NCBI RefSeq assembly: GCF_015234135.1
Contig: NZ_JADGIK010000002.1
Location: 62,001-126,000, forward strand
From: Faecalibacter rhinopitheci
GTDB taxonomy: Bacteria; Bacteroidota; Bacteroidia; Flavobacteriales; Weeksellaceae
Direction of reading: 5' to 3'
Length of the DNA: 64,000 bases
Positions 8,795 through 32,702 of this stretch are shown here, in pieces. The translations under genes and the position numbers were made by a program. The stretch's first letter is position 1; each line of letters starts with the position of its first letter. The notes below the pieces were generated by a model, which was not told where the DNA came from, made no database searches, and saw only the letters and a program-made list of their open reading frames with translations.

Positions 8795-8868
8795 AGCCGA
8801 TGGAGGGATTCGAACCCACGACCTGCTGATTACAAATCAGCTGCTCTGGCCAACTGAGCTACATCGGC
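8795..8868 (-). tRNA. tRNA-Thr (TGT), copy 1
   Basis: Complete cloverleaf: acceptor GCCGATG/CATCGGC, anticodon arm CTGAT-TTGTAAT-CAG with anticodon TGT, T-arm GTTCGAATCC. No encoded CCA. Identical to the copies at 8990 and 9172. Confidence 0.97.
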
Positions 8869-8875
8869 ATTATTG

Positions 8876-8957
8876 TGGGGAGAGCAGGATTCGAACCTGC
8901 GAAGGTGAAACCAACGGATTTACAGTCCGTCCTCGTTGGCCGCTTGAGTATCTCCCC
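8876..8957 (-). tRNA. tRNA-Tyr (GTA), copy 1
   Basis: Class II tRNA with a long variable arm. Acceptor GGGGAGA/TCTCCCC, anticodon loop CTGTAAA with anticodon GTA, T-arm GGTTCGAATCC. No encoded CCA. Identical to the copy at 9071. Confidence 0.97.
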
Positions 8958-8989
8958 AACCTTGTAAAGTTATCAATAAATATTGCTTG

Positions 8990-9063
8990 AGCCGATGGAG
9001 GGATTCGAACCCACGACCTGCTGATTACAAATCAGCTGCTCTGGCCAACTGAGCTACATCGGC
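8990..9063 (-). tRNA. tRNA-Thr (TGT), copy 2
   Basis: Identical in sequence to the tRNA-Thr genes at 8795 and 9172; second Thr unit of the alternating array. Confidence 0.97.
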
Positions 9064-9070
9064 AATATTG

Positions 9071-9152
9071 TGGGGAGAGCAGGATTCGAACCTGCGAAGG
9101 TGAAACCAACGGATTTACAGTCCGTCCTCGTTGGCCGCTTGAGTATCTCCCC
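9071..9152 (-). tRNA. tRNA-Tyr (GTA), copy 2
   Basis: Identical to the tRNA-Tyr gene at 8876, including its flanking CCAACCTTGTA on the plus strand, which suggests a recent Thr-Tyr unit duplication. Confidence 0.97.
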
Positions 9153-9171
9153 AACCTTGTATTTTTTGCTG

Positions 9172-9245
9172 AGCCGATGGAGGGATTCGAACCCACGACC
9201 TGCTGATTACAAATCAGCTGCTCTGGCCAACTGAGCTACATCGGC
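9172..9245 (-). tRNA. tRNA-Thr (TGT), copy 3, promoter-proximal
   Basis: First gene of the array in the direction of transcription; identical to the other two Thr copies. Confidence 0.97.
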
Positions 9246-24939: not shown

Positions 24940-25009
24940 TGTAAAAATTCAAATTTATTATAATTGAGCAACATACACGTCTTTCGCCAGAGGTTAGTCA
25001 ATATGGGTG

Positions 25010-31349: not shown

Positions 31350-31980
31350 TTTTTCATTTGCTCAGAACGATACTGTCAAAAATGTAAATGATACAATTAC
31401 TCCTATTAAAAATCCTAGGCATTTGTATATTGGAGTAGATTTAGCATTACCTGCTCAGGCATTGTTTACGGATAAACAAGGTGCACAAGCCTTTATAAGC
31501 TATCAAATAAAGCCTAAATGGCATGCTATTGTAGAGGTAGGTTATGAAAAAAACATTTACAATGAAACAAGTTGGAATGTTGATGTAGACGGAATTTTTG
31601 CGAAAATTGGAGCTAATTGGTTTATCACTCAAGAAGCTCAAAATCCTGCGAATGGATTTTATGTCGGTGGAAGATTAGTATATTCATCTTACAATCAAAA
31701 AATAAATTCATATCCTATTCGAGACATCTATTCTAATGAAATAGTTGGGGAAGGAAGCAAAGAAAAAGCTAGTGTCAACTCTTATTGGGCAGAAGTAGTT
31801 GTTGGAGGAAGAGTTGAATTATATAAAAAATTATATGCAGATTTTTCTATACATCCATCCGTCAATTTAGGTGGGAAGAAACAAGAAAATATAACACCTT
31901 TAGTAATACCAGGTTACGGAAGAAATAATGGACCTTTTAATTTACCTATTTTCTGGGGAATATCTTATCAATTATTTTAA
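31300..31980 (+). CDS. DUF6048-like outer-membrane beta-barrel protein
   Basis: A 226-aa protein with a signal peptide (about 1-21, ending FSFAQ), alternating beta strands with aromatic girdles (WHAIVEVGYEKN, GFYVGGRLVYSSY) and a C-terminal Phe (WGISYQLF), as in small outer-membrane barrels. The start must lie inside the preceding gene to keep the signal peptide. The gene order after rlmD supports the DUF6048 assignment. Confidence 0.72.
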   Translation: MQHQLILSFILSLVFTNFSFAQNDTVKNVNDTITPIKNPRHLYIGVDLALPAQALFTDKQGAQAFISYQIKPKWHAIVEVGYEKNIYNETSWNVDVDGIFAKIGANWFITQEAQNPANGFYVGGRLVYSSYNQKINSYPIRDIYSNEIVGEGSKEKASVNSYWAEVVVGGRVELYKKLYADFSIHPSVNLGGKKQENITPLVIPGYGRNNGPFNLPIFWGISYQLF

Positions 31981-31997
31981 ACCAAAATATACATCAT

Positions 31998-32035
31998 AAA
32001 AAAAGAGTTGAAGTAAATACTTCAACTCTTTTTTT
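31998..32035 (+). terminator. Terminator after the DUF6048 gene
   Basis: 18-bp arms (seven A, gagttgaagta / tacttcaactc, seven T) with an AA centre. Confidence 0.88.
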
Positions 32036-32064
32036 GTTATAAAACTTATCATAAGCTTTATAAC
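32036..32064 (-). repeat. Hairpin next to the candidate small RNA
   Basis: Stem gttataaa/tttataac extended by ctta/taag. The one odd pair is a G-U wobble when read on the minus strand but an A-C mismatch on the plus strand, which favours a minus-strand RNA structure. Confidence 0.45.
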
Positions 32065-32083
32065 ACCCATTTACGAAGTGTAT

Positions 32084-32162
32084 AAAAAAGGAAAACCCTT
32101 ACTTACGTAAGAGTTTTACCTTAACCAACCTAAACCTATGAAAAAGCCATTAGCCTTTTATG
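32084..32162 (-). ncRNA. Candidate small RNA between the DUF6048 gene and rpsF
   Basis: About 80 nt bounded by a good promoter and a terminator on the minus strand. The 3' hairpin (32092-32117) has 11 continuous pairs including one G-U, closed by a GUAA (GNRA) tetraloop, then CC and six U. The 5' part has a weak AAAAG/CUUUU stem. The middle, CAUAGGUUUAGGUUGGUUAA, is predicted single-stranded and is complementary to ACCAACCU next to start codons elsewhere in the window. No ORF longer than a few codons. I do not recognise a named family. Confidence 0.6.
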
Positions 32163-32166
32163 TGGA

Positions 32167-32197
32167 CAAATGTAATATTGTTTTTATAAAAAACAAA
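32167..32197 (-). promoter_or_regulatory. Promoter of the candidate small RNA
   Basis: Minus strand: TTTG (32194-32197), 19 bp, TACATTTG (32167-32174). This is a full match to the Bacteroidota primary-sigma consensus. Confidence 0.65.
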
Positions 32198-32304
32198 CTA
32201 TATTTATTTTTATTTAAAAAATATTTTTAAATGGTTAATTATCAGAATAGTTCTTCTTAACATTTAAATTCTATGGTTAATTTAAATAATATAATAATTT
32301 TATG

Positions 32305-32354: not shown

Positions 32355-32702
32355 ATGACACATTACGAAACTGTTTTCATTTTAACTCCCGTTCTATCTG
32401 ACTCACAGGTAGAGGAAGCAGTTAAAAAATTCAACGATGTATTAACTTCAAACGGAGCGGAAATCGTTGCAACTGAGAATTGGGGCTTAAAAAAATTAGC
32501 TTACCCAATCCAAAATAAGAGAAATGGATTTTACCACTTAGTAGAATTCAAAACTGAAAATACTGAATTAGTATCTCAGTTAGAGGTTGCTTACAAGCGT
32601 GATGAGCGTGTTATCCGTTTCTTAACTGTGAAATTAGAAAAACACGGTATTGAATGGGCTGAAACTCGTAGAACAAAATTAAAGTCTAACTCTAACAAGT
32701 AA
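32355..32702 (+). CDS. rpsF: 30S ribosomal protein bS6
   Basis: Ribosomal protein of 115 aa that pairs with bS18 in the 30S platform. [51 protein letters not shown] and [18 protein letters not shown] are typical. First gene of rpsF-rpsR-rplI. Confidence 0.97.

Follow-up and report, generated by a model that had tools for sequence, protein, structure and literature searches.

The intergenic segment that precedes rpsF in Faecalibacter rhinopitheci probably encodes a trans-acting antisense small RNA (sRNA), one of a paralogous family of the Weeksellaceae that would limit translation of OmpA and of other secreted proteins. The element occupies positions 32084..32197, on the minus strand, of the window, by which we mean the whole stretch of 64,000 nucleotides analysed here. 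Transcribed from its own promoter, the RNA would extend over about 79 nt and end at its own terminator. In the cell, its core would pair over the start codon of mRNAs whose sequence opens with AUGAAAAA, chiefly that of ompA and also those of other secreted or outer-membrane proteins, and a weak structure at the 5' end would open upon pairing. Such pairing would hinder initiation of translation; the outcome would be repression, not activation, presumably tied to a physiological signal. Blockage of initiation over the start codon, as reported for FopS, is the most likely mechanism.

What identifies this segment as a gene? The promoter, which we take to be of the usual Bacteroidota type, consists of a -33 element, TTTG, and a -7 element, TACATTTG, of the form TAnnTTTG. 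The initial annotation had read TTTG-N19-TACATTTG on the minus strand, and this is exact to the letter, with TTTG at 32197-32194 and TACATTTG at 32174-32167. Within the genus, the TAnnTTTG box is present at a constant 23-nt distance in all 10 distinct same-locus rows of the alignment, and 8 of these rows also have TTTG 17-21 nt ahead of the -7 box. When both strands of 864 kb of the own genome are counted, the exact string TTTG-N19-TANNTTTG turns up 19 times, compared to 9 times after mononucleotide shuffling, so the promoter by itself is not rare. The RNA is placed at 32084..32162 (minus strand), its 5' end inferred from the -7 box and its 3' end from the terminator. As the initial annotation had proposed (about 80 nt, then an 11-pair hairpin with a GUAA loop and a U-run), folding and a terminator scan yield an intrinsic terminator at 32084..32117, minus strand, with an 11-bp stem (32117-32092), a GUAA loop, CC and six U (T at 32089-32084). 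One terminator-type site is found in a 501-bp region, versus a mean of 0.1 in shuffles. An 84-nt minus-strand fold has a z-score of -3.57, with 0/200 shuffles as good; the plus strand gives the same value, and therefore fold energy cannot choose the strand. The single non-Watson-Crick position of the terminator is U-G on the minus strand, and each of the 6 wobble cells in the 8 distinct orthologue rows combines U in the 5' arm with G in the 3' arm (A-C on plus), which bears out the earlier argument that the wobble marks the minus strand as transcribed.

Comparison of orthologues adds conservation to this picture. Our reference set is a genus of 14 genomes, the own genome included, which we infer to be Empedobacter in GTDB terms. 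A blastn search of 60 relatives with a 176-bp query recovers the same element in 14/14 of these genomes; one further genus matches at E 5e-22, and weaker matches elsewhere are partial. An exact pattern scan of named contigs detects the pattern in Empedobacter, Faecalibacter, Chishuiella, Algoriella, Moheibacter, Weeksella and Vaginella, with no Flavobacterium record among the 31 stretches it returned. Alignment columns 4-47, 44 consecutive nucleotides, are identical in all 14 genus orthologues. The terminator varies in sequence while it remains paired: 86/86 cells are paired across the 8 distinct rows, 4 of the 11 pairs have changed on both sides, and pairing drops to 33-59% when the alignment is slid by 1-3 columns. 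A conserved hairpin with compensatory changes, the check that the initial annotation had suggested, is thus found in the genus orthologues. It is promoter, terminator and conservation combined that make the evidence for an sRNA gene. An independent minus-strand sRNA, the earlier reading, is strongly supported by the same place in 14/14 genomes, the compensatory terminator changes and the near-fixed promoter distance. One detail of that reading fails: the element was said to sit in the largest gene-free gap of the window, and the 374-bp gap is the fifth largest when ATG ORFs of at least 90 aa are counted; one of the larger gaps contains five tRNAs. The only ORFs of at least 30 aa that overlap 32000-32240 comprise 32 aa (minus strand, 31972-32070) and 30 aa (plus strand, 32138-32230).

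Upstream of the terminator lies the seed core UUUUUCAUAGGUUUAGGUUGGUUAAGG (32119..32145, minus strand), a complement of start-codon regions that is invariant in 14/14 genus orthologues. Within it, the 13-nt stretch AACCUAUGAAAAA (32133..32145, minus strand) is predicted to pair perfectly with the start region of the own ompA. Folded alone, the segment at 32141..32159 (minus strand) may form a 5' hairpin, AAAAGGCU-AAU-GGCUUUUU, with two G-U pairs, which contains part of the seed. In the full-length minimum-energy fold of the window copy and of most orthologues in the genus, the 5' part is engaged by the core and no 5' hairpin forms; the centroid fold of the same sequences leaves the core open.

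The window copy has relatives within its own genome and across the family, and these paralogues, together with the start-codon seed and the predicted targets, are additions beyond the initial annotation. We built a covariance model, R2, from 45 matches, two of which came from the FopS model and four of which are own-genome copies (one at C1:333800 and three in tandem at C1:248135-248809). In the own genome R2 reaches E <= 0.01 at 8 places, these 4 model members among them. At the same threshold, 42 of the family's 148 genomes, spread over 13 of its 33 genera, contain a match, where about 1.5 genomes are expected by chance; the best E lies between 0.001 and 0.01 in 13 of the 42, and 29/148 genomes match at E <= 0.001. 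Across the phylum, with just 15 candidates per genome scored, R2 reaches E <= 0.001 in 3/296 genomes, own included, and the other two matches (L161, L162) do not convince. Neither the sRNA pattern in viral contigs nor a plasmid search yielded a match. Locus L159 of G014 was rejected despite a better R2 match, with core and promoter box both missing, and G014 is therefore grouped with the genomes that lack the sRNA; G084 and G108 are counted as carriers from the model match.

Three features recur in most members: a small hairpin at the 5' end, the core CAUAGGUUUArGUUrGUUA and a terminator whose sequence is free to vary. Of 52 distinct sequences with the seed, 24 have a strict TAnnTTTG box 15-32 nt ahead of it, versus 31 of 1726 control positions. 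The arms of the 5' hairpin covary (AAAAGC/GCUUUU, AAAAGU/ACUUUU and, by eye, GGAAAUAG/CUAUUUCC), and 5' segments folded alone average -3.78 kcal/mol over 42 distinct sequences, compared to a control mean of -1.35 kcal/mol (sd 0.19; lowest of 100 sets -1.93). The promoter-box set includes L079, L084, L095 and L104, all of which were excluded from the folding; the last three are doubtful family members, and L079 was rejected as a member, being the start region of a secreted-protein gene. The window copy and the C1:333800 paralogue have the seed CUUUUUCAUAGGUU in common, and Moheibacter lacus carries three copies 150 bp apart (L085). In the tandem copies the seed is replaced by a variant, UAUAGUAGUUUAGGUU, and a 5' hairpin is not evident. 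Arrays with UAUAGUAGUUUAGGUU occur at L061 (own genome, C1:248135-248809), L042 and L044, and several copies are present in two relatives as well; a promoter ahead of each copy is not clear. A paralogue at own C23:155791-155882 (L032) has a further hairpin, placed between seed and terminator, and lacks a clear promoter; it may be part of a longer transcript.

Which mRNAs would such an RNA recognize? Read in complement, the core gives a start codon and then Lys codons (CCUAAACCUAUGAAAAA). We scored it against 736 start regions of ATG ORFs of at least 90 aa, a sample of 30% of the own genome. By uninterrupted pairing, ompA ranks first of the 736, with 13 bp of perfect match, and it ranks fourth by duplex energy. 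The product of this gene belongs to the OmpA family (Pfam OmpA, E 2e-17), and each of the 14 genus genomes has one match to it at E <= 1e-60. The sequence CCTATGAAAA occurs in 1 of the 736 start regions. Among the genus ompA orthologues, ACCTATGAAAAAA is kept in 13/14, the remaining one having an inserted A, and the columns upstream of ACCTATGAAAAAA vary.

The complementarity to ompA follows the sRNA across genera and drops sharply in genomes where no sRNA was detected. For this comparison, 28 genomes outside the genus were chosen by hand, and G119 (an OmpA match without a start) and L259 (the second locus of G024) were dropped. The mean duplex energy of core and ompA is -18.8 kcal/mol in the genus (14 loci) and -21.4 kcal/mol in Moheibacter and the genus of W. 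massiliensis (7 loci, range -18.6 to -25.3); in all 7 genomes of the latter group the sequence ahead of the ATG is partly different and the pairing as strong or stronger. Two further sRNA-carrying genera pair moderately, at -15.4 kcal/mol (7/7, -14.3 to -16.0). Genomes counted as sRNA-less average -10.0 kcal/mol (best -16.3; 14 loci in 13 genomes), a contrast of which shared history may explain part, since their OmpA has diverged further (about 45% identity) and related genomes do not count as independent samples. When all of the core but UUUUUCAU was shuffled, 3 of 300 shuffled cores paired as well with ompA of the genus, 0 with the Moheibacter/W. massiliensis group, 1 with the two further genera and 195 with the sRNA-less genomes. 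The differences in energy from the sRNA-less group were reached by 0, 0 and 1 of 300 shuffled cores for the three carrier groups in the same order.

A second group of predicted targets comprises secreted proteins of a QVGINT type, with 29 start regions in 6/14 genus genomes and none in the own genome. Their mean pairing energy is -17.0, versus -12.9 (sd 1.0) in shuffles, with 0/200 as low, a mean that counts L267, the core-matching locus through which the family was discovered. Of the 30 loci collected, L295 (contig edge) was excluded and L290 (a false start) retained. The start region of L267 (G007:C1) pairs with the whole core at -34.1. L267 and L268-L296 form a multigene secreted family marked by unusual complementarity between its start regions and the sRNA; the one QVGINT-type protein compared with Pfam gave no match. 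L128, strong as a candidate target in the own genome, was rejected, the pairing being absent from a close orthologue. Genome-wide, long complements of the core are not enriched (10 non-self sites versus 12 for the reversed pattern). Nor is the number of start regions below -12 kcal/mol raised (231/736 versus a shuffle mean of 245). The best tail of the same 736 regions is raised, with a top-10 mean of -21.6 versus -19.8 (sd 0.6) and -21.0 as the lowest of 40 shuffles.

Could the complementarity to start codons be incidental? CsrB titrates CsrA, and a real RNA might similarly titrate an RNA-binding protein through the repeated GGUU units of its core (AGGUUUAGGUUGGUUAAGGUU). The core contains four GG and is invariant over more bases than one pairing requires, the family is multicopy, and general complementarity to start regions is not raised, as such titration would have it. 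We nevertheless regard this alternative as unlikely: from genus to genus, pairing with ompA goes together with the sRNA, and it is stronger than that of shuffled cores of the same composition. In the own genome neither an Hfq gene nor an RRM_1 gene was found at E <= 0.001, while the RRM_1 search did match in the control, Bacteroides ihuae. The antisense reading leaves room for a protein as well. Since the invariant stretch exceeds the need of any single pairing, a protein may also bind; as neither RRM_1 nor Hfq was found, the partner, if any, would be another one.

The genomic setting raises the question of whether the element acts in cis, on rpsF, instead of in trans. The gene for ribosomal protein S6 (rpsF, 32355..32702, plus strand) is the divergent neighbour of the sRNA in 14/14 genus genomes and in Weeksella massiliensis, a linkage that speaks for such control. 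The element is, however, directed away from rpsF without overlap, and in two genomes (L005, L006) rpsF is 631 and 818 nt away. Around the paralogues and the Moheibacter members, rpsF was not found in the fetched stretches of 1.2 to 8 kb. On grounds of orientation, distance and these rpsF-free surroundings we reject cis control of rpsF as improbable. On the other side of the sRNA, a DUF6048 gene adjoins it in 4/14 genus genomes. Between this gene and the sRNA lies an inverted repeat with runs of A and T on its flanks (window about 32000-32037), which is probably a bidirectional terminator and a back-up for the sRNA.

A short gene on the plus strand, or a leader peptide (MKKPLAFY...), ahead of rpsF is a scarcely credible source of the conservation. 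The complement of the seed does open an ATG-AAA-AAG frame of 30 aa, kept for 8 residues at the rpsF locus of the 14 genus genomes, but the frame diverges past residue 8. In sequences from elsewhere than the genus locus, it reaches a stop within 28 codons in all but two: L089, where it stays open through the 31 codons inspected, and L079, which is a genuine gene start. The wobble pairs and the TAnnTTTG box indicate the minus strand as well, so that this explanation is largely refuted and was rejected.

How does this candidate antisense RNA relate to those already described? At its cut-offs, Rfam places no family at the sRNA, in agreement with the initial annotation, which had not recognized a known family; FopS, though below threshold, is the nearest known family and a meaningful relative. 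In the remainder of the window, Rfam yields five tRNAs and an L19 leader. The five tRNA genes (8795-9245) are consecutive, with two types alternating at equal scores, as if duplicated, and the leader (24969-24996) matches L19-Flavobacteria (RF03130) with 41.3 bits. FopS (RF04319) is the best Rfam match to a 126-bp query, over its full length (1-71), with 24.9 bits versus a cut-off of 56 and E 0.035. With a 361-bp stretch the E-value of FopS is 0.099, best by bits though not by E-value, the match with the lowest E covering the inverted repeat at 32000-32037. Applied to 60 relatives, the FopS model finds none above its cut-off (best 40.5 bits), and several of its matches there, seedless and chance-like by eye, were rejected. 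Across the whole genome its top two hits fall on a tandem paralogue and on the window copy itself (E 0.15 and 0.19). The 5' parts of sRNA and FopS align as UUUUUCAU-GGU/UUAG/UUAAGGUUAA, with a local alignment score of 36 that is reached by 10/20000 dinucleotide shuffles and 0/20000 own-genome windows. Conversely, R2 finds 6 of 8 viral-contig copies of FopS weakly (E 0.012 to 2.4) and has its best viral match at a different position; as R2 holds two FopS-model sequences, such matches are not independent. The FopS seed sequence is present in the 8 viral contigs (L168-L175), in L168 directly after a tRNA-like sequence (by eye), and one viral contig has a place resembling the core family (L175:453-520; R2, E 0.01) with the FopS seed elsewhere on the same contig.

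FopS is a paralogous sRNA family of Bacteroides thetaiotaomicron, conserved within Bacteroidaceae, which pairs with the start regions of susC-type mRNAs and blocks initiation, an effect antagonised by RbpB (PMC11697453). The sRNA resembles it in its several copies per genome, its short length and its layout of a 5' seed followed by a terminator. The terminators correspond; the 5' part of FopS is single-stranded, whereas that of the sRNA may pair and has a possible hairpin over part of the seed. Where FopS pairs at the start of susC-type mRNAs, the sRNA is predicted to pair at that of ompA, its main target, and not SusC. It further differs in its stable place beside rpsF and in an own genome without a detected RRM_1 gene for an RbpB partner (E <= 0.001). 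In view of a sub-threshold score and a similar seed and layout, we name the rpsF-linked sRNA FopS-like, possibly homologous to FopS, and do not file it as FopS.

Other known sRNAs share single traits with it. MicA and other enterobacterial porin sRNAs pair at the ompA start region as well; they are Hfq-dependent and belong to another phylum. GibS (RF04182), likewise a Bacteroidota sRNA, scores 20.6 bits on the sRNA versus a cut-off of 115; FopS is reported to share the R1 seed of GibS, which is longer than the rpsF-linked sRNA and has a second seed, there termed R2 (PMC11697453). Rfp18 of Flavobacterium psychrophilum is also a conserved flavobacterial sRNA with secreted or surface targets and is described as having its pairing site in the third stem-loop, unlike the predicted site in the 5' core here (PMC9723704). 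Searches of open-access papers, judged by titles and the beginnings of abstracts, brought up no evident description of the rpsF-linked sRNA.

Tentatively, and with the odds somewhat against it, FopS, GibS and the rpsF-linked family might be branches of one Bacteroidota-wide class of sRNAs. Their seed would read the start codons of exported proteins generically (AUG-AAA-AAA, which encodes the signal-peptide Met-Lys-Lys, together with a 5' extension specific to each gene), here without an Hfq or RRM chaperone, and OmpA would be an anciently kept target. Bacteroidota have start regions without Shine-Dalgarno pairing and often no Hfq. Outside Bacteroides, few antisense sRNAs of the phylum have been studied, Rfp18 being one example. 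With its conservation, its paralogues and a predicted target that persists across several genera, the sRNA offers a tractable model outside the gut, and would suggest that sRNA control of OmpA at the start codon arose more than once.
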